Part shown: in pieces, positions 7,419-34,265 of the stretch
How positions within the stretch are numbered: position 1 is the first letter of the stretch
How the letters are laid out: the number at the start of each line of letters is the position of its first letter
Source: Arthrobacter sp. NtRootA1
GTDB taxonomy: Bacteria > Actinomycetota > Actinomycetes > Actinomycetales > Micrococcaceae
NCBI RefSeq assembly: GCF_019976975.1
Contig: NZ_AP024630.1
Coordinates: 682,001-746,000, forward strand
Length of the DNA: 64,000 bases
Reading direction: 5' to 3'
Notes under the pieces: generated by a model
What the model was told of the DNA's origin: nothing
Databases searched by the model: none
The model's input: only the letters and a program-made list of their open reading frames with translations
Program-made: the position numbers and the translations under genes

Positions 7419-8077
7419 GGCTGCTCGACGCGGTAACCGACCCCGCGGACGTTGATGATGAAGCCGGGAAGTTGGAGCTTGGACCGCAGGCCCGTGAGGT
7501 GCACATCCAAGGACCGGGAATTTGCGAGGAAAGCGTCACCCCAGAGGGCATCGAGGATCTGTTCCCTTGTCACTACGGATCCTGCGTGCCTTGCCAGGAG
7601 GCTGAGGAGTTCGAACTCTGTTGCGGTCAGGGAGAGTTCCCTTTCGCCAACAGCTGCTTTCCGGCGGTCGAGGTCCACGCTGACGTTTCCCACCACGATG
7701 CTGTGCGGTGCAGCCTGCCCAGCACGGTTGGTCCGGCGTGTCACCGCTTCGATCCTGGCCAGCAATTCCACGAGCTTCACAGGCTTGACCAGATAGTCGT
7801 CGGCCCCGGATCGAAGGCCCAGGACCACACTGCGCTCGTCGTCGCGCGCAGTCAGGATCAGGATGGGGACCTGGGTTACCTGGCGCAGTTTCCGTAGGAC
7901 ATCCAAGCCGTCCAGGTCCGGCAGTCCCAGATCGAGCAGGATCACTTCGTGGTGCCGATGCCCCAGGAGTGCGTCTTCGCCACGGGACACTCTTGTGGCT
8001 TTGTGGCCGGCGGATGCAACGGCAGCACTCAAGGCCGACGCCATGGCGTCGTCATCCTCGACGATGAGCACGTGCAC
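7415..8077 (-). CDS. OmpR/PhoB-family response regulator
   Basis: A 220-residue two-domain regulator. The receiver domain has the acidic pair in IVEDDDAM, the phospho-acceptor Asp in ILLDLGLPDLDG, the Thr in ILTARDDE and the Lys in LVKPVKLVELLARI. The C-terminal winged helix includes LSLTATEFELLSLLARHAG and SLDVHLTGLRSKL with INVRGVGYRVE. It is first of the co-translated regulator, kinase and TAXI genes and overlaps the kinase start by four bases. The MHS transporter immediately upstream on the same strand is the most obvious target. Confidence 0.93.
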   Translation of the reverse strand: MHVLIVEDDDAMASALSAAVASAGHKATRVSRGEDALLGHRHHEVILLDLGLPDLDGLDVLRKLRQVTQVPILILTARDDERSVVLGLRSGADDYLVKPVKLVELLARIEAVTRRTNRAGQAAPHSIVVGNVSVDLDRRKAAVGERELSLTATEFELLSLLARHAGSVVTREQILDALWGDAFLANSRSLDVHLTGLRSKLQLPGFIINVRGVGYRVEQP

Positions 8078-8134
8078 TGTGTGATCCTTTGGGGCTGGTG
8101 GGCTGGTGGGCTGGTTCGCTACTCGAGCTTAACG

Positions 8135-8193
8135 TTGTGAGGCCCGTTCTGCGCCCCTCGGAGTGTCCAAAGGGCGCAGAACGGGCCTCACAA
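8135..8193 (-). terminator. Long perfect hairpin between MHS transporter and response regulator
   Basis: Two perfectly complementary 22-base arms (8135-8156 and 8172-8193) flank a 15-base loop. The hairpin follows the MHS transporter stop at 8226 by about 30 bases, in the direction of transcription. It lacks a strong T-run, so it could be a Rho-type barrier, an mRNA 3' stabiliser or a processing site. It separates the transporter from the two-component operon. Confidence 0.7.
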
Positions 8194-8225
8194 GCCAGCC
8201 GTTCTAGGCGCTGGCACAGCAGGTT

Positions 8226-9629
8226 TTAGGCGTTGGCCAGGTCCTTCTTGTCCTCGTCGGCTTCGTGCGAGGCAGAGCCCTTCGCGGCGAAGGCGCTTCC
8301 CTGCTCGGCGTCCAAGTGCGTCGCTTTCTTGTTCTTCAACGCGAAGATGTATACAAGCAGCGAGATGAAGATCGCGGCAGTCACATAGGTGAAGAACATG
8401 TCCACCTGCCCGGCCTTCTGCAGAGCGGCGCCAATCAGCGGAACCGTGCCGCCGAACAGCGAGTTCGCGATCGCATATCCCAGGCCGACACCCAGGGCCC
8501 GGATCGATGCCGGGAACAGCTCAGCCTTCACCAGCGCATTGATGGAGGTGTAGCCGCCAACCATGAGCAGGCCGCCCAGCATGAGCAGGAACGCCATAAA
8601 CGGATCCTTGGTTCCGGACAGCGTGGAGAGCAACGGCCATGTGAACAGTACACCCGTAACGCCGAACCAAATCAGCAGCGGCTTGCGGCCGATCTTGTCC
8701 GAAATCAAGCCATAGACCGGCTGGAGCAACATGAAGATGAACAATGCCCAGAAGTTGATGACGGAGGTATCGGTCTTGGCGATTCCGGACGTATCGTTCA
8801 TGAACTTCAGGATGAAGTTGGTGTACGTGTAGAACGCCACGGTGCCACCGAGCGTGATACCAATGCAGATGAGCAGCGGCTTCCAGTGCTTGGTGAACAG
8901 CAGTTTCATGGTCCCCGGCTGTGCCTCGCCTTCAACCTTCACGTGCGCGGCGCGGAGCTGATCGGCGGAAAGCGTCTCTTCCATGGACCGGCGAAGCCAG
9001 AGGACAACCAACGCAGCGACGCCACCAATCGCAAAAGGAATGCGCCAGCCCCAGGCCGTCAGGTCTTCCTTGCTCATGGTGTTCTGCAGGATCACCAGCA
9101 CCAGGAGGGCCAGCATCTGCCCGCCAATGAGCGTTACGTACTGGAAGCTGGAGAAGAAACCGCGGCGCTTGGCAGTGGCAGCCTCGGACATATAGGTGGC
9201 GCTGGTGCCGTATTCGCCGCCCACCGAGAAGCCCTGCACGACGCGGATAAAGACCAGCAGGATCAGTGCCCAGAGCCCAATCACGTCCTGGGTTGGCAGG
9301 AGCGCAATGGCAAACGAACCCGCCGACATCATGGTCACGCTGAGGGTCAGAGCGGCCTTGCGGCCCTTGCGGTCGGCGTAACGGCCGAAGAACCAGCTGC
9401 CGATGGGACGCATGAGGAACGACGTCGAGAAGACCGCCATCGCTTCAAGGCCAGCCTGCAGATCGTCAGAGGAGTTGAAAAAGTGCGACTGGAAATACGC
9501 CGCGAAAACCGTATAGACGTAGAGATCGAACCACTCCACGAGGTTGCCCGCGGAGCCCTTGAGGATATTGCTCACGGCCTTGCGTGTCTGTGCGGCCTCG
9601 CTGAGGGACGCAACTTGTTGGGTGCTCAT
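8226..9629 (-). CDS. MHS-family MFS transporter (proline/citrate/alpha-ketoglutarate permease type)
   Basis: A 467-residue, 12-helix permease of the metabolite:H+ symporter family. Signature regions are AGNLVEWFDLYVYTVFA in helix 1, FGRYADRKGRKAAL in loop 2-3, FIRVVQGFSVGGEYGTSATY in helix 4 and SDKIGRKPLL in loop 8-9. MHS members take up carboxylates, betaines or shikimate-like acids. The start at 9629 has an AGGAAGG ribosome site. A TAXI binding protein and two-component system downstream suggest a di- or tricarboxylate substrate, as inference. The C-terminal tail is acidic and hydrophilic (about 30 residues). Confidence 0.9.
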   Translation of the reverse strand: MSTQQVASLSEAAQTRKAVSNILKGSAGNLVEWFDLYVYTVFAAYFQSHFFNSSDDLQAGLEAMAVFSTSFLMRPIGSWFFGRYADRKGRKAALTLSVTMMSAGSFAIALLPTQDVIGLWALILLVFIRVVQGFSVGGEYGTSATYMSEAATAKRRGFFSSFQYVTLIGGQMLALLVLVILQNTMSKEDLTAWGWRIPFAIGGVAALVVLWLRRSMEETLSADQLRAAHVKVEGEAQPGTMKLLFTKHWKPLLICIGITLGGTVAFYTYTNFILKFMNDTSGIAKTDTSVINFWALFIFMLLQPVYGLISDKIGRKPLLIWFGVTGVLFTWPLLSTLSGTKDPFMAFLLMLGGLLMVGGYTSINALVKAELFPASIRALGVGLGYAIANSLFGGTVPLIGAALQKAGQVDMFFTYVTAAIFISLLVYIFALKNKKATHLDAEQGSAFAAKGSASHEADEDKKDLANA

Positions 9630-25510: not shown

Positions 25511-26932
25511 TTAGTGCTGACGACGAGCCGACCGCCGGACACCCAGGAAACCCAGCAACGATCCCAACGCCAAAAGTGCAGCGGCTGCGAAGACGAACAC
25601 CGGGCTTTGAGCTCCCGTGGTAGCAAGCCGCTCTGGTTTCGGAACCTCTGCGGGCTGAGTCGGCTCGTCCGTGGCTACAAGTACCGGGCTTGTGGTGCTG
25701 GGGCTAGGGCTAGGCGTTGCGGTGCTTTCGCTAGGGCTAGGCGTGGGTGTTGCGGTGCTTTCGCTAGGGCTGGGTGTGGGTGTTGGTGTTGCTGTGCTGG
25801 TGCTCGGGCTGGGTGTGGGTGTGGGTGTTGCTGTGCTGGTGCTCGGGCTGGGTGTGGGTGTGGGTGTTGCTGTGCTGGTGCTCGGGCTGGGTGTGGGTGT
25901 GGGTGTTGCTGTGGGTGTTCCGGTGCTTGGGCTCGGCGTCGGTGTGGGTGTTGCCGTGGGGCTTGCCGTTCCTTCGCCTGTTCCGTCAGCACGGGTTCGC
26001 CGCGTTTCGGCACCGACAGGGGTTTCTTCACCCGCAATATTTACGGTTCCGCTGTTGGTGTAGACGTCCAGCTTCCTGTCCGTCACTTTGGTGACGACGA
26101 AGAGCTCTACCCGTTCACCCCTGGGCAGGCCCGTCCACCGCACAGTTGCTTCTTGGGGAGTGCACTCGACATTTGCGGGGTATAGCTCGTTGTCCATTGG
26201 CTCGGTGATGTTTCCGGAGCTGTTGACAACCCTGCCGACGCGCGGAGTGATGTGGTCGCAATCGATTTCCATGCCAGCGGCGGGCGTGTCCGTCACAACG
26301 ACGTCGTTTGATTCTGAGGGCATTGGAGGCATGTAAAAGATGGATTCAAGTTCAGTTTGCGGAGCGTCGGCCCACCACATGGACTTGCCCGCCGAAGTAG
26401 GGGCAGCGGGATGGCAGTCCTGGGTGCATGGACCGTCGACATGGACAGGCACGCGTACCACTGTGGACCCCACGGTGAAGTTCACTTCCGTCGTTTCGCC
26501 GGTGCCCGGCTGCACAGCATATTGCGTGCTGAAATTACACGTCCCACCCACGTTGTTGGGATGGTCCGCCACGAAGTCGGTCAAGGTGAAGACCACTTGT
26601 CCGGCATCGTTGGCTGCCGCTTTGGCGACCGTTACGCCGTCGGCGTTGTCTAGATCAAATGACGCGGCACCAAACCAGCGAAGTTCCGGCGGCAGCTGCA
26701 GGTTGAAGGTATCGCCGGGCTGCGAGTTGTCAGGAACGGACCACTGACAGGTCAGGTCTACTTGGTCCCATTGGTTCGTGACCACTGAATCCGTGCTGAT
26801 GGTGACCGCCGCGCCCGGGATCACGGCAGCATTCGCTGGCCCTGCCGACCAGGCGAGTCCGAAGGCTGTCACCACAACAGCCAGTAGTGCGGCCACCAGG
26901 GAGGCGGACTTTAGATGGAGCTGATTCTTCAT
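25511..26932 (-). CDS. Secreted surface protein with TP-rich repeats and LAxTG sortase signal
   Basis: A 473-residue protein. A signal peptide (LVAALLAVVVTAFGLAWSAG, ending near PANA) is followed by an adhesin-like beta domain (about 40-300; SDSVVTNQWDQVDLTCQWSV begins TISTDSV). A TPTPTPSPSTSTA repeat region (about 330-420) spans it from the wall. The C-terminus is LATTG, a hydrophobic helix and RRSARRQH. LAxTG is the signal of class E sortases in high-GC Gram-positives. No sortase is in the window. The ATG at 26932 starts the signal peptide. Its beta domain resembles those in surface adhesins; ligand unknown. It neighbours an ECF sigma factor that may control it. Confidence 0.85.
   Translation of the reverse strand: MKNQLHLKSASLVAALLAVVVTAFGLAWSAGPANAAVIPGAAVTISTDSVVTNQWDQVDLTCQWSVPDNSQPGDTFNLQLPPELRWFGAASFDLDNADGVTVAKAAANDAGQVVFTLTDFVADHPNNVGGTCNFSTQYAVQPGTGETTEVNFTVGSTVVRVPVHVDGPCTQDCHPAAPTSAGKSMWWADAPQTELESIFYMPPMPSESNDVVVTDTPAAGMEIDCDHITPRVGRVVNSSGNITEPMDNELYPANVECTPQEATVRWTGLPRGERVELFVVTKVTDRKLDVYTNSGTVNIAGEETPVGAETRRTRADGTGEGTASPTATPTPTPSPSTGTPTATPTPTPSPSTSTATPTPTPSPSTSTATPTPTPSPSTSTATPTPTPSPSESTATPTPSPSESTATPSPSPSTTSPVLVATDEPTQPAEVPKPERLATTGAQSPVFVFAAAALLALGSLLGFLGVRRSARRQH
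25750..25975 (-). repeat. Coding minisatellite in the surface protein (39-base unit)
   Basis: About five near-identical in-frame units encode TPTPTPSPSTSTA-type repeats, each 13 residues (39 bases). Adjacent units at 25790-25910 are almost base-identical, so copy number probably varies by slippage and alters the length of the wall-spanning stalk. Confidence 0.8.
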
Positions 26933-27023
26933 GTGTTGGATGGTCCTTCGAATGCGGAAGCGTGTCTCGTCGCATGGTGAGTGGCGGCTCGACGCTGTTC
27001 GTGACGGCACCAACAGGCTTCAC

Positions 27024-27928: not shown

Positions 27929-29545
27929 ATGGCATCCGGGACAGGTACTGACAACGCTTCCAGCGCAGGAGTTGAGAGCGACGGTCATCTTATCGGGTTA
28001 GTGCGTGGCGGTGACATGTCCGCATTCGACGAACTGTATGAACGTCATGTGTCTGTCGCGTCCACAGTGGCCCGGCGAAACGTGGACAATCCAAGCGACG
28101 CCGAGGATGTTGTGGCCGAGGCTTTCCAAGCCGTATTGCAGAGCCTGGTTGCGGGACGGGGGCCGGACAACTTCTTCAGGGCGTACCTGCTGTCCACTGT
28201 CACCCGCCTGTCACATCATCGGAACCGGAAGGCCGGGCGGTCGCTGCCCAGCAGTGACGACGCCATTCTTGACCGTACGTTGCCGGATCCCGACGCCGTA
28301 GTCAAAGCCTTCGAATCGCATACGGTGGCAAAGGCATTTCGCGCCCTTCCCGAACGGTGGCAGGCCGTGCTGTGGTATCTGGACGTGGAAAGAATGAAGC
28401 CAGCGGCGGTGGCACCACTCCTGGGTCTGTCTGCGAATGCCGTGTCAGCACTGGCGCTCCGGGCACGGGAAGGCCTGAGGCGGCAATACCTGCAGGCCCA
28501 CGTGGCGGAAGAACTGGACAGTGAGTGCGCCGGATTCGCATCAAAACTCGGTACATTCATTCGAGGAGGACTTTCAAGGATTGCTGAACGCAAAATGCGT
28601 CAACACCTTAGTGGTTGCTCGAAATGCACCGGCGCCCTCTCGGAACTAAAGGACGTTCAGGGAACCATGCGGGCTGTGCTTATCCCGCTGGTAACTGGCA
28701 TACCTCTCGCCACCTTGGCAGCCAAGGGTGCCGGATTAGGTTTCCTGGGCGGGCTGGTCCCCATCAAGGCGGCGATCGTGGTGCCGGCTATTGGGCAACC
28801 AGCGGTAATGGCCATGGTAGCGGTGGCCGGTTTGGGCCTGGCCCTAGGCGCGGTTGGAATCGTTGGTCGCTTGACGCCGGATGTCCCCGTGGAGCAGTTG
28901 GCCATTGAGACAAGTTCCTCCCGTCAGGAGTCATTTGTAGGGGCCCCCGCCCCAACTCCCACGGCGACCCCGCTACCGAGCTTGCCATCGCCTGTGTCAC
29001 CAGCCGCGGTTGAGCCAGCGCCGTCAGACGGCGGGCCCGAGGAGTCAAACGCTGGACGCGAGGAGTCAAACGCCGGGGCCGAACCCTTGGTCGCTGCCCC
29101 GGTACCGTCGGGCGTGGAATCCCAGCCGGCGCCTCAACAGTCTGTTCCCTCGCCGGACCCGGCCTCGCCGGCGGCAACAGCCCTTCCCGCGTCACTTGTA
29201 GCGGTGACAGCGTCGGTGCGGATACCAAAGGACCGTGGTGCGGGCATGACGGCCATGGAGGTGGATTTTGGGATCGGCGGCTCACAGTCCCTGGGCCCGG
29301 CCAAAGCCGTGTTCTCAGTGGAGATGGATGCACGGATCCAGGAGAGTTCGCTGCTTGCCCCGGAAGGGTGGTCCTGCTCCATGGAGGGGCGGACGGCCGT
29401 CACCTGCATTACAGCTTCGGCCCGGCGGAACGACCTCCATTTTCAGGTGTCCGCCCAGTCCAAGCGTAAAAAGGGCGCCGGTGTCCTGACATATTCCTTG
29501 AGTGGGAGCGGTCTTGCAGCGGGCGAATTCGTGCACAAGTACTGA
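27929..29545 (+). CDS. Membrane-tethered ECF sigma factor fused to zinc-finger and extracytoplasmic domains
   Basis: A 538-residue protein. Region 2 (about 25-95; FDELYERHVSVASTVARRNV) and region 4 (about 135-190; FRALPERWQAVLWYLDVERM, then APLLGLSANAVSALALRARE) form an ECF sigma factor. HLSGCSKC (about 227-234) is the Hx3Cx2C zinc motif of ZAS anti-sigma domains. Two hydrophobic segments (about 250-310), a Pro/Ser/Ala-rich linker (about 325-425) and a C-terminal beta domain containing WSCSMEGRTAVTCITA follow. The whole resembles ECF groups with fused anti-sigma and exported sensing domains, such as ECF53. It may sense the wall and control the flanking genes. Confidence 0.85.
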   Translation: MASGTGTDNASSAGVESDGHLIGLVRGGDMSAFDELYERHVSVASTVARRNVDNPSDAEDVVAEAFQAVLQSLVAGRGPDNFFRAYLLSTVTRLSHHRNRKAGRSLPSSDDAILDRTLPDPDAVVKAFESHTVAKAFRALPERWQAVLWYLDVERMKPAAVAPLLGLSANAVSALALRAREGLRRQYLQAHVAEELDSECAGFASKLGTFIRGGLSRIAERKMRQHLSGCSKCTGALSELKDVQGTMRAVLIPLVTGIPLATLAAKGAGLGFLGGLVPIKAAIVVPAIGQPAVMAMVAVAGLGLALGAVGIVGRLTPDVPVEQLAIETSSSRQESFVGAPAPTPTATPLPSLPSPVSPAAVEPAPSDGGPEESNAGREESNAGAEPLVAAPVPSGVESQPAPQQSVPSPDPASPAATALPASLVAVTASVRIPKDRGAGMTAMEVDFGIGGSQSLGPAKAVFSVEMDARIQESSLLAPEGWSCSMEGRTAVTCITASARRNDLHFQVSAQSKRKKGAGVLTYSLSGSGLAAGEFVHKY

Positions 29546-29636: not shown

Positions 29637-29656
29637 CTGTGCAATTTAGGGGAAAT

Positions 29657-30571
29657 ATGAAAGCAACGTTGTTGGCCGTTGCAGGCTTGCTGGGCGCGTT
29701 GGCGGCGGTTTGGGCTTTGGTCCCGATCGGTCAAAAATGGTTCGTCCGCAGGTTCAGCTCGCCGCATGGCCTCCGATGGGCCATGGCAAGTTTGGGCGCC
29801 CTGTTGCTGCTGTCACTGGTGGGATGCGCAATGGAGCCGGCGCACCGCCCGTGGCTTGAGGTTGTAGTCCTGCTCACAGGAGCGGGGTTGATTGTGGGCT
29901 TTCTTGTCGCGCCCGCCTTCAGGATTCACCACGGTGTGGCCTTGCAACCCCGAAGGGTGCTGGCCATAGGAGCCCACCCTGACGATCTGGAATTGGCCTG
30001 CGGTGCAACCCTCGCCAAATTGGCCGATGCCGGGCATGAAGTCCGAACCATGGTGATGAGCTCAGGCGGAAAGGGAGGCGACAGCGCCATCCGTGTGACC
30101 GAAGCCGCGTCAGGCTCGGATTTCATGGGTGCCTCCAAGGTGCATGTCCACGACTTTACGGACACCAGCCTCGCGGAACATGGGGATGAAATGGTCCAGG
30201 CGATTGAGGCTGTGATGGGCGATTTCCGCCCCGACGTTGTGATTACCCATTCCCGTAACGATTATCACCAGGACCATCAGGCCGTACACAGTGCGACCAT
30301 GCGGGCAGCCCGCCAGCACTCCTCCATCCTGTGCTTCGAGAGTCCCTCATCTACACGGCAGTTCGATCCCAGCGTCTTCGTGGATATCGCGGGGTATGTG
30401 GACGTAAAGATTCACGCCGTTGCCATGCACCGGAACCAAAAGGGCAAGCCTTACATGAGTGCAGAAAGAGTACGCAGCCTCGCAGCGTTCAGGGGCTCGC
30501 AAGTGAAGACCACGTATGCAGAGGGTTTCGAACCTGTTCGACTGCTTGGCTCGGCCGTAGGGGAGTTCTGA
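29657..30571 (+). CDS. Membrane-anchored PIG-L/LmbE-family N-acetylglucosamine deacetylase
   Basis: The protein has 304 residues. Three hydrophobic segments (about 3-25, 42-62 and 68-92) precede a PIG-L domain. AIGAHPDDLELACGATLAKL carries the AHPDD zinc motif, and HSRNDYHQDHQAVHSATM carries the HxDH motif. The family removes acetyl groups from GlcNAc-containing lipids, MshB-type thiols or glycans. Membrane helices suggest a lipid-linked or nascent polymer substrate. The ATG at 29657 has an AGGGGA site. Its stop overlaps the ATP-grasp start by one base (TGATG). First gene of a four-gene operon. Confidence 0.88.
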   Translation: MKATLLAVAGLLGALAAVWALVPIGQKWFVRRFSSPHGLRWAMASLGALLLLSLVGCAMEPAHRPWLEVVVLLTGAGLIVGFLVAPAFRIHHGVALQPRRVLAIGAHPDDLELACGATLAKLADAGHEVRTMVMSSGGKGGDSAIRVTEAASGSDFMGASKVHVHDFTDTSLAEHGDEMVQAIEAVMGDFRPDVVITHSRNDYHQDHQAVHSATMRAARQHSSILCFESPSSTRQFDPSVFVDIAGYVDVKIHAVAMHRNQKGKPYMSAERVRSLAAFRGSQVKTTYAEGFEPVRLLGSAVGEF

Positions 30572-31494
30572 TGGTTCGGGTACTCGTAACAGGCGTTGGA
30601 GGACCAGCTGGCTCCTCCTTGGCGCGCCAGCTAAGAGAACTGGGGCATTGGGTCCTGGGCGTTGATATGCAAGCGGTCAACGGTTCCGCGGCTCACATGG
30701 TCTCCTTGGTATCGGCCTCCAGTTCTCCCGACTATCTGTGGGAACTGCGGGGACTTGTGGGCGCCCATGGCATCGATCTTGTGGTGCCCACCGTCAGCGA
30801 TGAACTCGTCCTGGTTTCCGAAGCCCGGCAAGGCTTCGCCCCTAATGTCGAGGTCCTTATTGCCGACCCCGCACCCGTTCGAATCGCGAATGACAAATTC
30901 CTCACCATGACGTGCCTCGCCAATGCAGGCGTCGCTGTCCCCGATTTCGGGTTGCCCGGCGATTTCGCCTCTGTCGATCAGGCGATGGCGCGGCTAGGGG
31001 GATCCCTAGTGGTCAAGCCACGCATTTCCCGCGGGGGACGCGGGGTTCAGGTACTGGAAAAGACTGCCGACGGCGGCCGGAACGCCGCCCACGTCTGGTC
31101 CTTCTTGGACGATTCCTGGATTGTGCAACGATTCGCACCTGGAACGGAGTACGCGCCCGTGGTCCTCCGCCACAGGCCTGAGCCGGGCCAGGACGATCTT
31201 GTGGTGGTGCTGGAGAAGACGGAACTCAAAGAGGGGCGTGTAGGGAATGCCGTGTCTGTCAGGAGGGTCGACGGAGCCGAGAGCGCCGACGTGGCCCAAT
31301 TGGCTGATTCAGCCGTGACCGCGCTCGGGTTGATAGGACCCATCGACGTGGACGTGCGCCGCCTGCAGGACGGAAGCCCAGTGGTACTGGAGATCAACGC
31401 GCGGTTCGGCGCAAACAGTGCGTTCGCCCCCGAACTCCTGGAGAACGTCCTGGACCGATATGTCGCCGGTCGAATCACCGGAAGGCCTGCGTGA
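30571..31494 (+). CDS. ATP-grasp ligase (CarB-like)
   Basis: The protein has 307 residues. An N-terminal Rossmann-like domain (VRVLVTGVGGPAGSSLARQL) precedes an ATP-grasp fold: LGGSLVVKPRISRGGRGVQV with the ATP-binding Lys, and PVVLEINARFGANSAFAPEL with the metal-binding Glu and Asn. It is related to carbamoyl-phosphate-synthase-like ligases that join a carboxylate to an amine, often amino acids to sugars or peptides. Placed between a deacetylase and a polysaccharide synthase, it could acylate an exposed amino sugar; that is inference. Overlap with both neighbours (one base and four bases) implies one translated unit. Confidence 0.85.
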   Translation: MVRVLVTGVGGPAGSSLARQLRELGHWVLGVDMQAVNGSAAHMVSLVSASSSPDYLWELRGLVGAHGIDLVVPTVSDELVLVSEARQGFAPNVEVLIADPAPVRIANDKFLTMTCLANAGVAVPDFGLPGDFASVDQAMARLGGSLVVKPRISRGGRGVQVLEKTADGGRNAAHVWSFLDDSWIVQRFAPGTEYAPVVLRHRPEPGQDDLVVVLEKTELKEGRVGNAVSVRRVDGAESADVAQLADSAVTALGLIGPIDVDVRRLQDGSPVVLEINARFGANSAFAPELLENVLDRYVAGRITGRPA

Positions 31495-32768
31495 CACCTC
31501 TTGATGCTGCCCTGGCGTTTGTCCAGGTTGGGGGCGTGCTGATTCTCAGTTTCGGAGTGGTCAAGATCGTCTACGTTCCACTGGCCTTGTATTTCAACCG
31601 GCTTTACCGTTCCAACTCTGCCAAGCATCGCTACTCCGTCATCACTGACCGGCCCCTGGTCTCTGTGATCGTGCCCGGCTATAACGAGGCCGTGGTGATC
31701 ACCAGTTGCGTCGAGTCGATACTTGCCAGCCGCTATTTACGCTTGGAAGTAATTCTGGTGGACGACGGTTCCACTGATTCCACCGCCAGCATCATGGCAG
31801 GACTTGCAGATCAGTATGATCGGGTCCGATTTCTCTCCCAAGCGAATGCAGGGAAAGGCGCTGCGCTCAACTATGGCATCGCCGAGGCCAATGGAGACAT
31901 CCTGATGTTTGTCGACGCCGATGGGATATTTGCCCCCGACACCCTGATGCGCATGCTCGAGGGTTTTGATCACGCCAAGGTGGGAGCGGTATGCGGCGAC
32001 GACCGGCCGGTTAACCTGAATCGCGTTCAAACGATGATGCTTGCCGTTCTAAGCCACGTCGGGACAGGCCTGGTCCGTAGGGCCTTGTCCTTGTTGCATT
32101 GCCTGCCAATCGTCTCCGGAAATATAGGTGCCTTCCGCCGTGACGTAGTCCAACTGGTAGGCGGTTTTCACGAGGATACGCTCGGTGAGGATCTTGAGCT
32201 CACTTGGCGTGTCTATAAGGCCGGCTACCGGGTGAGGTTCCAGCCCTCAGCCTTGGTCTATGCCGAGTCGCCGTCAACGATGGGCGGATTGTGGCGGCAG
32301 CGCGTTCGGTGGTCGCGGGGCCTGCTCCAGACGCTCCGGATGCATATCGGGATGCTTGGGCGGCGGCGTTACGGGCTGTTTGGCATGTTTCTTTTGTTCA
32401 ACGCCATCACCATGGTGGTGATTCCTGTGCTGCAACTTGCCATTTTGGCGGTGCTGCCGTTCCTCTACCTTGCCGGTTCAGGTCCCGTACCCGCTGAAGT
32501 CCTCGCCATTCTTGGCTGGTTGGGACTGTTTGTGTCCTTGGCTCTGATTGTGTTCTCCATTGGCCTCAACCGTTCATGGAAGGACCTTCGCTTTCTATGG
32601 ACGCTGCCCCTGTGGCCCCTGTATTCGGTATTCGTTGGCCTGGCTCTAGCCAGCGCAATCATCAAGGAGATCCGCGGCACCCCTGCCGTCTGGAACAAGC
32701 TCCAACGGACGGGCGTTATTTCCGTAACTGCCACAGAGGCCGGCCCCCGCTACGAGGCAGGCGTATGA
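31491..32768 (+). CDS. Processive family 2 glycosyltransferase (polysaccharide synthase)
   Basis: A 425-residue synthase. An N-terminal helix (about 8-28) precedes the GT-A domain: VIVPGYNEAVV, VILVDDGSTDSTASI, MFVDADGIFAPDTLMRM (DxD), EDLELTWRVYKAGYR and WRQRVRWSRGLLQT (QxxRW). Three or four C-terminal helices (about 300-410) form the channel. These residues place it with PgaC/IcaA and hyaluronan-type beta-glycan synthases; poly-N-acetylglucosamine is a likely but unproven product. GTG start at 31491 overlaps the ATP-grasp stop (GTGA). Confidence 0.92.
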   Translation: MTPLDAALAFVQVGGVLILSFGVVKIVYVPLALYFNRLYRSNSAKHRYSVITDRPLVSVIVPGYNEAVVITSCVESILASRYLRLEVILVDDGSTDSTASIMAGLADQYDRVRFLSQANAGKGAALNYGIAEANGDILMFVDADGIFAPDTLMRMLEGFDHAKVGAVCGDDRPVNLNRVQTMMLAVLSHVGTGLVRRALSLLHCLPIVSGNIGAFRRDVVQLVGGFHEDTLGEDLELTWRVYKAGYRVRFQPSALVYAESPSTMGGLWRQRVRWSRGLLQTLRMHIGMLGRRRYGLFGMFLLFNAITMVVIPVLQLAILAVLPFLYLAGSGPVPAEVLAILGWLGLFVSLALIVFSIGLNRSWKDLRFLWTLPLWPLYSVFVGLALASAIIKEIRGTPAVWNKLQRTGVISVTATEAGPRYEAGV

Positions 32769-33892
32769 AGGCTCTTGGATCCACGATGCTGGTTGCCAGG
32801 CTAAGTGCTGCCCTGGTGGGCTCCGTTCTCCTTGGCGTTGCGTTGACGGGTGTCGCTGCATGCGCAGAAGAACCGGAGCATCGTCCTACGGACCGCATGG
32901 TGAATCTTGGCTTTGAGGACGTCATCAACGAGGACCCGTCGCACCTTGTGGATTTGGCGGAACGATTGGAAGCTGTGGACGCCACCGCCGTATCGATCTC
33001 CGTGGGACGCACAGATTGGACGGCCTTTCCCTGGTCCGGCCAAACCGACGCGATCTCTTATGAGGTTTCCCGCACAGGCAGGGACTTCGTGGGGGAGGCG
33101 ATCTCAGCATTGGCGAAAAATGGCAAGGAACGTGATGTGATCCTCACGATCGATGTCCTGTTGGACCGTGCACTGAGTGAGGACCCCTCCCTGGCGGGTC
33201 GGAATATCGCTGGTGAGCCATCCAAAGCCTTCGCCAGTGTGTCGTCCCTGCGGCACGGCAAGGCCGGTGCCCGACTGGCTTCCTTGGCTGGTGCCGTCGC
33301 GAAGAAGTACCGGCCCACGGCGGTGAATCTCACGGAATTGATGTTCGATGATTTCACCTTTGGCAGTGAAGACTTCGATGACTTCAAAGCCACCACCGGA
33401 GAAGATGACTGGCCCAGAAACCGCGAAGGCGGGATCGACCAATCGGATGCCCGGATCAGCACGTGGCGCAGCGAAGCCATGGCTGACATCGTGCGCAGGG
33501 TGGGAGCCGCCGTCGAACCTTATGGTGTCCGGCTGGAGATGGATGTGCGCTCGCCGCGGGATTCACCGTCGGCGGACCGCGCCGACAGCGGCCATGACTA
33601 CGACCTCTTGCTCAAGCAGCTCGATCGGCTCCACGTTTGGGAGTACGTAGGAATTAACGCCGAGCGCTCGCCGCAGACGAAGGATCTCGCAAAAGCCTTG
33701 ACCCGCCGCGCGGGCTCCCGCATGTCCTTGTCTGTCGGGCTCTGGTCCGATGACGGCACGATCTCCCCGGAAAGGTTCGAAACCGCTTTGCGCGAGGCTG
33801 CCCGAGGCGGGGCCACATCCGTGTCCGTGACGCCCGCAAGCCTCATGACCGCCGGTCATTGGGAGGTCTTGCGGAACGCTTGGGCCCGGTAA
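32765..33892 (+). CDS. Exported lipoprotein resembling the PgaB C-terminal glycosidase (GH153-like)
   Basis: A 375-residue protein with a signal peptide and lipobox VAAC. The mature region folds as a TIM-barrel-like protein: DRMVNLGFEDVINEDPSHLV, then LTELMFDDFTFGSEDFDDFK, ISTWRSEAMADIVRRVGAAV and LEMDVRSP. The acidic MFDDFTFG segment and overall layout recall the C-terminal glycoside hydrolase domain of PgaB, which cuts de-N-acetylated poly-GlcNAc. Similarity is weak by eye. ATGA overlap (32765-32768) couples it to the synthase. No CE4 deacetylase domain is present; the PIG-L protein may take that role. Confidence 0.6.
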   Translation: MKALGSTMLVARLSAALVGSVLLGVALTGVAACAEEPEHRPTDRMVNLGFEDVINEDPSHLVDLAERLEAVDATAVSISVGRTDWTAFPWSGQTDAISYEVSRTGRDFVGEAISALAKNGKERDVILTIDVLLDRALSEDPSLAGRNIAGEPSKAFASVSSLRHGKAGARLASLAGAVAKKYRPTAVNLTELMFDDFTFGSEDFDDFKATTGEDDWPRNREGGIDQSDARISTWRSEAMADIVRRVGAAVEPYGVRLEMDVRSPRDSPSADRADSGHDYDLLLKQLDRLHVWEYVGINAERSPQTKDLAKALTRRAGSRMSLSVGLWSDDGTISPERFETALREAARGGATSVSVTPASLMTAGHWEVLRNAWAR

Positions 33893-33935: not shown

Positions 33936-34265
33936 ATGGGCATGGAATCCGTAATGGCGGCAGTGGTAAGCCTTGCACTGATTGTGGGGTCGGTTTGGGC
34001 TGGCACGCGGCTGGTGCAGAAGGGCGTTTCCGCGAAGGGGGCGACGGGCACGCTCGGGAGTGTCCTTTCCATGATCGAGCCGTCCACTGGTGCGCCGACC
34101 AAAATTGAGGCCGCGGCAGCCCGCGAGGAGATGCGGCAGCGAAGGCACGAGAAATTGGTAGCCGGCCCCGGCACCGCAGAGGTCAGTCTGTTCGCCGGGA
34201 AGGTGGTCCTGCCGCCGTCGGCCGACAGGATAGCCAAGCAGCAGTCCGGGGACGCCAAAATCTGA
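33936..34265 (+). CDS. Small membrane-anchored protein, function unknown
   Basis: The protein has 109 residues. A single hydrophobic helix (about 6-25; VMAAVVSLALIVGSVWAGTR) is followed by a charged tail, REEMRQRRHEKLVAGPG. Codon usage is normal for the region. It is not recognised. It lies 43 bases after the glycosidase-like lipoprotein and could belong to that operon or stand alone before ppc. Confidence 0.55.
   Translation: MGMESVMAAVVSLALIVGSVWAGTRLVQKGVSAKGATGTLGSVLSMIEPSTGAPTKIEAAAAREEMRQRRHEKLVAGPGTAEVSLFAGKVVLPPSADRIAKQQSGDAKI

Follow-up and report, generated by a model that had tools for sequence, protein, structure and literature searches.

The 64,000-nucleotide stretch of the Arthrobacter sp. 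NtRootA1 genome analysed here (NZ_AP024630.1, positions 682,001 to 746,000; hereafter the window) carries a 4.2 kb operon of four genes, coding for a PIG-L deacetylase, an ATP-grasp ligase, a PgaC-like glycosyltransferase of family 2 (GT2) and a lipoprotein, all on the + strand and with successive overlaps of 1, 4 and 4 bases, as an earlier note on this DNA had stated and the open reading frame (ORF) coordinates bear out (Table 1). The four-gene set is a real unit, patchily distributed among relatives of the host. We propose, with belief and doubt about equally weighted, that it builds a synthase-dependent surface amino-glycan, the amines of which are deacetylated and re-acylated in the cytosol before or during polymerisation, the product then being trimmed outside.

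The distribution was followed with the lipoprotein as probe, it being the most specific part of the set. A GTDB contig scan, which gave 14 loci in Arthrobacter, Paenarthrobacter, Glutamicibacter and Pseudoclavibacter, was combined with whole-genome matches and, once duplicates were dropped, this yielded 24 loci with an intact lipoprotein, spanning four families plus Pseudoclavibacter (L016 and L024 are one genome, as are L017 and L027, and each was counted once; L019 and L020, with lipoprotein remnants only, stand outside the 24, and L021 is counted, though its PIG-L gene is cut by the contig end). All four genes are present in 23/24 of these loci, which come from no fewer than four families and differ in their chromosomal surroundings, the exception being L023, an orphan intact lipoprotein in Glutamicibacter ardleyensis (7938-9050). 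The order PIG-L, ATP-grasp, GT2, lipoprotein seen in the window is kept in 17 of the 23 complete loci, and overlapping or abutting starts recur among them, the ATP-grasp gene included, which answers favourably the check on conserved co-occurrence in actinobacterial genomes that the earlier note had proposed. Synteny is conserved, and the modelled lipoprotein is closest in fold to PgaB (see below); neither of the two refuting conditions set by that note overturned its reading. A. horti (L024) is rearranged, with PIG-L, GT2 and lipoprotein in that order twice, plus a second, degraded-looking ATP-grasp. The flanks vary, a phosphoenolpyruvate carboxylase gene adjoining the operon in the window, L015, L021, L022 and A. 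horti and being elsewhere in other loci. Among the loci compared, the unit shows no constant fifth member, PgaD and IcaD not having been searched for separately. Lipoprotein remnants without an operon occur in L019 (9139-9817) and L020 (8934-9032) and, together with the orphan L023, they are possible traces of operon loss.

The pairwise distances of the four proteins correlate across the 23 loci with r between 0.885 and 0.969, part of which shared species history alone would give. Hardly any credence is left for the view that the four are unrelated, chance neighbours: each of PIG-L, ATP-grasp and GT2 is a common family, and seven ATP-grasp relatives of one family, discussed below, have no GT2 nearby, but the joint presence in 23/24 loci, in varied chromosomal settings and in two architectures, contradicts it. 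Nor are the genes chance ORFs, since homologues share 34-88% identity and, in seven gene pairs between the window and L015 or L021, nonsynonymous divergence (dN) is 0.10-0.28 against a synonymous divergence (dS) of 1.1-2.2, the latter near saturation; in the seven pairs tested, these comparisons point to purifying selection. The host genome (5.28 Mb, one contig) holds five PIG-L matches and one copy of the operon-type ATP-grasp, and a second GT2 of the operon kind was not found in it (next best 49.6 bits). A promoter and terminator scan gave no signal above chance.

Concerning the deacetylase, the protein scores 98.8 bits against the Pfam family PF02585 (cut-off 28.2) and has three N-terminal helices, followed by a catalytic domain with AHPDD (residues 106-110) and HQDH (204-207, an H-x-D-H motif), both invariant in 6/6 aligned PIG-L sequences; by score and by motifs it belongs to the PIG-L deacetylases. 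The NCBIfam matches include relatives of established chemistry, namely BshB, Mca and MshB, and the protein stays below the equivalog cut-offs of the thiol enzymes (BshB1 84.6 against 182.5, MshB 32.4 against 224.35 and Mca 36 against 277 bits). In mycothiol synthesis MshB, a PIG-L enzyme, deacetylates and MshC ligates an amide to the freed amine in the same compartment, and a small-molecule pathway of this kind, in which PIG-L and ATP-grasp would make a mycothiol-like glucosaminide amide and the GT2 would supply the glycoside, would share both these relatives and an identical deacetylate-then-ligate logic. We consider it very improbable, given how widely the cut-offs are missed and given that a cytosolic thiol needs neither a GT2 with synthase motifs nor an exported, glycosidase-like lipoprotein. 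MshC is tRNA-synthetase-like rather than ATP-grasp, and mycothiol is a cytosolic thiol.

The side of the membrane on which the deacetylase works was examined in 15 PIG-L N-termini (L041 and L042 were left out), 14 of which show three hydrophobic helices. Lys and Arg residues number 3-7 in the first loop and 3-6 between the last helix and the catalytic motif, and the loop joining helix 2 to helix 3 has 0-1 of them in the fourteen. The positive-inside rule hence predicts a cytosolic catalytic domain in 14/15 proteins examined, and fusions to a receiver domain (see below) agree with this, as the receiver domain of response regulators operates in the cytosol. Such a topology would place deacetylation before export and in the same compartment as the ATP-grasp enzyme. 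The membrane enzyme of the earlier description has three N-terminal helices in 14/15 proteins examined and gives way, in five loci, to a receiver-domain fusion. No match to a polysaccharide deacetylase family was obtained for any of the four operon proteins (Pfam, E 1), in keeping with the earlier claim that PIG-L replaces the deacetylase of carbohydrate esterase family 4 (CE4), but an enzyme predicted to be cytosolic is no simple stand-in for the extracellular CE4.

The GT2 matches PF13641 with 122.5 bits (Pfam) and its best NCBIfam model is TIGR03937, PgaC_IcaA, the score of 196.7 bits being far under the cut-off of 422.3; it is 31% identical to E. coli PgaC over 286 aligned positions. The name PgaC-like, given to it earlier, is thus apt as to the closest model and does not extend to the poly-N-acetylglucosamine (PNAG) synthases proper, whose cut-off it does not reach. 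The motifs DDG, DADG, GEDLE and QRVRW are invariant in 14/14 aligned GT2 sequences, QxxRW being kept. Against the PDB, the GT2 profile matches cellulose synthase over positions 50-354 of 419 and hyaluronan synthase 1 over 99-357. These two matches, together with the kept QxxRW, argue against a system in which the GT2 places a single edited amino sugar, or a few of them, on a carrier, giving a glycolipid, a wall-linked sugar or a short lipid-linked oligosaccharide that the lipoprotein trims. What favours such a product is the similarity of the GT2 also to the NCBIfam models MftF, EpsD and AglJ, families that are not known to be polymer synthases, and to 6yv7, an archaeal GT2; in addition, the four include no gene dedicated to export or co-polymerisation, and Cwp19, which ties with PgaB in the fold list of the lipoprotein, acts on the cell wall. 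Synthases of the cellulose and hyaluronan type, however, are not known to need a separate exporter in Gram-positives, and we judge a non-polymeric product unlikely.

The lipoprotein gave no Pfam match at E 1, and NCBIfam and PDB sequence searches were likewise without result, so that, there being no Pfam family on which a PgaB-like label could rest, it was tested by modelling. Weak matches were to GHL6 in 2/16 members (best E 0.023) and to GHL10 and DUF4015 in 1/16 each. The AlphaFold2 (AF2) model is a TIM barrel with a predicted local distance difference test (pLDDT) score of 89.1 and a predicted template modelling (pTM) score of 0.85. Foldseek ranks first and second the PgaB domains 6au1 (E 5.8e-12) and 4p7q (E 2.4e-11), Cwp19 coming third, and VIA-align places on top 4p7q, 4p7l, 4p7o and 4p7n (Z 28.1-28.6, root mean square deviation (rmsd) 2.9-3.1, 312-313 residues, 10-12% identity), 4p7q itself reaching Z 28.6 (rmsd 2.9, 313 residues aligned); lower down come 6au1, at Z 27.2, and the entry after it, at Z 25.0. 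Residues T190-E191, at the end of strand 4, are invariant in 24/24 aligned sequences, as are D130, D203, D260 and W292. The lipobox pattern matched 14/24 rows of the lipoprotein alignment, eight rows being cut before the N-terminus and L018 and L023 (TNAC) giving no match. The predicted fold thus matches the PgaB glycosidase domain best, with Cwp19 tied by Z, and the likeness is one of fold, not of family; in other words, the modelling proposed earlier upholds a PgaB-C-terminal-like fold, and the profile comparison with PgaB, at E 0.15 and a probability of 0.4%, gave no significant support for sequence membership.

The ATP-grasp enzyme scores 55.9 bits against PF02655 (ATP-grasp_3, Pfam, cut-off 23.2) and 92.4 bits against NF009402 (NCBIfam), below the cut-off of 218. 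K149, E274 and N276 are invariant in 13/13 aligned sequences and are the Lys and Glu/Asn of the nucleotide-metal site; with PF02655 above its cut-off and these residues kept, the protein was assigned to the ATP-grasp domain. The best AF2 model has a pLDDT of 86.5, and its nearest chains are 2pn1 (Z 25.9), a carbamoylphosphate synthase large subunit according to its depositors, followed by biotin carboxylase and PylC, both at Z 23.8, and by D-Ala ligases near 23. The reaction is not fixed by the fold, because ligases and carboxylases are among the neighbours alike; the model is compatible with carboxylate-amine ligation and is no proof of it. Second ATP-grasp copies lie about 2.5 kb beyond the lipoprotein gene in L029 (11488), L031 (11405), L032 (11432) and L034 (11501), where LGVCATLGENS or LGVCATMGENS replaces LEVNARFGANS, and are likely dead or re-purposed; they were considered as working partners and rejected, having lost the Glu and Asn of the LExNARFG motif, and the copy of L029, the one tested, has no Pfam match, which also counts against such a role.

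The association of the first three genes reaches beyond the operon. Five of the 23 complete loci (L043, L044, L048, L049 and L050) show a second architecture, in which ATP-grasp, GT2 and lipoprotein genes, in that order, are accompanied by a convergent gene pair, coding for a receiver-domain-PIG-L fusion, with the receiver N-terminal, and a membrane histidine kinase with PAS, HisKA and HATPase domains. Both proteins were confirmed by Pfam in L043 and L048 and read by eye in L049 and L050; for L044 the view was limited to the receiver and the N-terminal portion of the second protein. By its domain composition the pair reads as a two-component system with a deacetylase as output domain. A search for the fusion in 198 genomes of the order (E limit 1e-60) gave seven loci (L064-L070), with an ATP-grasp gene beside it in 7/7, a GT2 also in 6/7 (L066 is without) and a kinase match in 6/7 (L069 is without), and with no lipoprotein match in any (0/7, within the 15-20 kb fetched). 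The ATP-grasp of L067 and L070, the two tested, is of the ATPgrasp_Ter type, and in L070, the sole locus tested, a PHP-domain gene lies between the cluster genes. Genome G268 holds both the four-gene operon (L042) and a cluster of receiver-PIG-L, ATP-grasp and GT2 (L068), in separate places, and the two are hence not simple alternatives.

From the other side, a search of 246 genomes of the class with the ATP-grasp model (E limit 1e-20) gave 13 relatives besides that of the host itself, six of which have PIG-L and GT2 within the fetched stretch, two being already among the seven receiver-PIG-L loci. PIG-L, operon-type ATP-grasp and synthase-like GT2 come together repeatedly. Two of these triads, L086 and L092, include WecB, a UDP-GlcNAc 2-epimerase (250.7 and 259.0 bits against a cut-off of 210.15); the currency of the triad is likely to be amino nucleotide sugars, and these two matches above cut-off point to a UDP-N-acetylhexosamine. 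In both loci (L086 6438-12495, L092 4909-11001) the genes follow one another as PIG-L, GT2, an ATP-grasp extended at its N-terminus, WecB and a HAD hydrolase, the last tested in L092 only, and the neighbours resemble, by eye, rho and release-factor genes.

Taken from gene identities, overlaps, conserved linkage, predicted folds and predicted membrane side, all of which were computed, the pathway we infer in its sugar, order of steps, acylation and acyl group, polymer formation and hydrolysis would run as follows. The tethered PIG-L, with its active site in the cytosol, would strip the N-acetyl group from an N-acetylhexosamine intermediate, whether this is a nucleotide sugar, a sugar linked to a lipid or the end of the chain on the synthase. 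The ATP-grasp ligase would then make the acyl phosphate of a carboxylic acid, possibly an amino acid, and couple it to the freed amine, a step for which the excerpt of PMC11130364 offers a precedent in the ATP-grasp PglB2 of Neisseria, which makes an N-acylated amino sugar. The GT2 synthase would polymerise the sugar and move the chain across the membrane and, outside, the membrane-anchored lipoprotein may bind and cut (or guide) it, as the PgaB glycosidase domain does.

Several results weigh against this proposal. The lipoprotein set is rare, being found in 7/197 genomes of the family, two of these remnants, and in 7/396 of the order, 4/394 of the class and 1/296 of the phylum (each count includes the host genome and, with few candidates scored in each genome by the pre-filter, distant copies could have escaped). 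The PIG-L of L029 has only two of the three helices called at the threshold used, and the lipoprotein homologue of L018 has no signal peptide. Cwp19 of C. difficile, a protein acting on the cell wall, reaches Z 27.7 against the lipoprotein and by the rule of the tool is tied with PgaB; the sequence relation of lipoprotein and PgaB is not significant (hhalign, 16 lipoproteins against 6 PgaB domains), nor was it in an earlier profile comparison with one PgaB, and the catalytic His-Asp of PgaB is matched to T190-E191 only by strand order and secondary-structure register. The best PDB matches of the GT2 by E are a partial chondroitin synthase (39-162) and then 6yv7 (51-282). The five AF2 models of the ATP-grasp enzyme range in pLDDT from 86.5 to 45.1, and its fold neighbours mix amide ligases and carboxylases (Z 22-24). 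Finally, in 7/13 of its relatives in the class, which belong to a single family, the fetched stretch contains no GT2, one of them with a weak PIG-L match 2 kb away and one sitting on a 7.7 kb contig, which indicates that the superfamily serves other pathways too. Three of these seven loci were inspected (L087, L088 and L090): they hold a distant ATP-grasp subfamily from one actinobacterial family, their neighbours are, by eye, genes of other kinds, with no GT2 in the fetched stretch, and in L087 and L090 the gene next to ATP-grasp resembles an inositol-phosphatase-type protein.

Among known systems, the closest are pgaABCD and icaADBC, which share with the operon a PgaC-like GT2 synthase, an amino-sugar deacetylase and, in PgaB, an exported TIM-barrel glycosidase domain. 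They differ in that their deacetylase is an extracytoplasmic CE4 enzyme whereas the operon has a PIG-L predicted to be cytosolic, in that the operon adds an ATP-grasp ligase and carries its glycosidase-like domain on a lipoprotein of its own, not significantly related to PgaB in sequence, and in that the conserved genes showed no PgaD, IcaD or IcaC partner, none searched for separately. A PNAG-like system, in which PIG-L would give a partly deacetylated, cationic polymer and the ATP-grasp enzyme would be otherwise employed (a separate cap, amine carboxylation), would suit the nearest GT2 model and the PgaB-like fold, as the established substrate of PgaB is, in the excerpt of PMC5933820, deacetylated PNAG. 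We hold it to be rather unlikely, with the ATP-grasp gene linked as tightly as the others and recurring in triads without the lipoprotein, PIG-L predicted to be cytosolic and the GT2 far below the PNAG-synthase cut-off. The operon resembles Pga/Ica and MatAB in synthase and glycosidase fold and, set beside the excerpts of PMC7112194 and PMC5972031, falls short of the PNAG-synthase cut-off and of a CE4 match; the parallel to Pga/Ica drawn earlier thus survives for synthase and glycosidase fold and is lost at the level of families, with no CE4, the GT2 below cut-off and no PgaB sequence relation.

As regards the single components, GH153, the C-terminal domain of PgaB, is the best-scoring solved fold for the lipoprotein and shares with it, by strand order, an acidic residue ending strand 4, but the lipoprotein has Thr-Glu at the proposed catalytic place, where PgaB of B. 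bronchiseptica has H473 followed by D474, the probable catalytic residue as far as the excerpt of PMC5933820 goes; sequence similarity is not significant and Cwp19 lies within 1 Z. MatAB of Streptomyces is also an actinobacterial synthase with a GT2 closest to PgaC plus a deacetylase, but its MatB joins a GT2 and an extracellular CE4 in one protein, and the consulted part of PMC5972031 names no ATP-grasp or PIG-L. PglB2 of Neisseria is likewise an ATP-grasp enzyme building an N-acylated amino sugar, with a glyceramido group, and differs in being fused to a phosphoglycosyl transferase and serving protein O-glycans, the consulted part of PMC11130364 naming no PIG-L or synthase partner. The Gram-positive Pel operon pelDEADAFG combines a synthase-type polymer, a deacetylase and a separate hydrolase and, in the excerpt of PMC7112168, has another synthase set, a PelA-type deacetylase and c-di-GMP control. 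No description of PIG-L, ATP-grasp and GT2 in combination was found among the matches listed in the open-access literature searched, outside which most subscription journals lie, which agrees with the earlier statement that the composition is undescribed. Of the two, the PIG-L/ATP-grasp/GT2 module is the more novel part, the operon itself being a variant of synthase-dependent exopolysaccharide systems.

Table 1. Features of the four-gene operon, with positions in the window.
Feature	Position	Strand	Details
PIG-L N-deacetylase, membrane-anchored (predicted)	29657-30571	+	304 aa; PF02585 98.8 bits, motifs, helices and charge
ATP-grasp carboxylate ligase (putative), CarB/PylC-like fold	30571-31494	+	307 aa; 1-base overlap with PIG-L; PF02655 55.9 bits
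Synthase-type membrane GT2	31491-32768	+	425 aa; GTG start; 4-base overlap with ATP-grasp; TIGR03937 196.7 bits
Lipoprotein, PgaB-glycosidase-like TIM barrel (predicted)	32765-33892	+	375 aa; 4-base overlap with GT2; lipobox VAAC, Cys33
Likely ribosome-binding site AGGGGAA of the PIG-L gene	29648-29654	+	Sequence reading; just upstream of ATG

Two neighbours in the window were considered as parts of the operon and rejected. The first (27929-29545, +) is an extracytoplasmic function (ECF) sigma factor with a weak zf-HC2 stretch (20.5 bits against a cut-off of 22.2) and, both by eye, a membrane segment and a Pro/Ser-rich tail, apparently sigma and anti-sigma factor in one chain; of the loci searched, it adjoins the operon only in L015, L016/L024 and L022, and is found also beside the lipoprotein remnant of L019, a single weak match (E 2e-4) occurring in L050. 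The second is a 109-aa ORF (33936-34262), which, of the loci searched with it, L015 and L021 alone possess. Farther upstream, 25511-27013 (-) reads by eye as a surface protein with long TPTPSPSTST repeats and a C-terminal sorting signal of LATTG type.

A final point concerns what the unit may mean. Tentatively, and with doubt outweighing belief, we suggest that PIG-L, ATP-grasp and GT2 form a module, the partners of which (PgaB-like lipoprotein, PHP hydrolase, WecB, histidine kinase) can be exchanged, and that this module would swap N-acetyl for another acyl group inside the cell and so yield surface glycans of an N-acylated, perhaps aminoacylated, class; in one branch the deacetylase would be the output of a two-component system and phosphorylation would directly set the chemistry of the polymer. 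Among the literature matches listed there is no matrix pathway of such a kind in Arthrobacter-like bacteria. PNAG-type matrices are N-acetyl polymers deacetylated outside the membrane, by PgaB or IcaB; deacetylation in the cytosol with a ligase refilling the amine would lead to charged or N-acylated surface glycans by another path and, if the receiver-PIG-L fusion is what it seems, a phosphorelay would directly target polymer modification. At 4.2 kb, the operon can be cloned and tested as a single piece.

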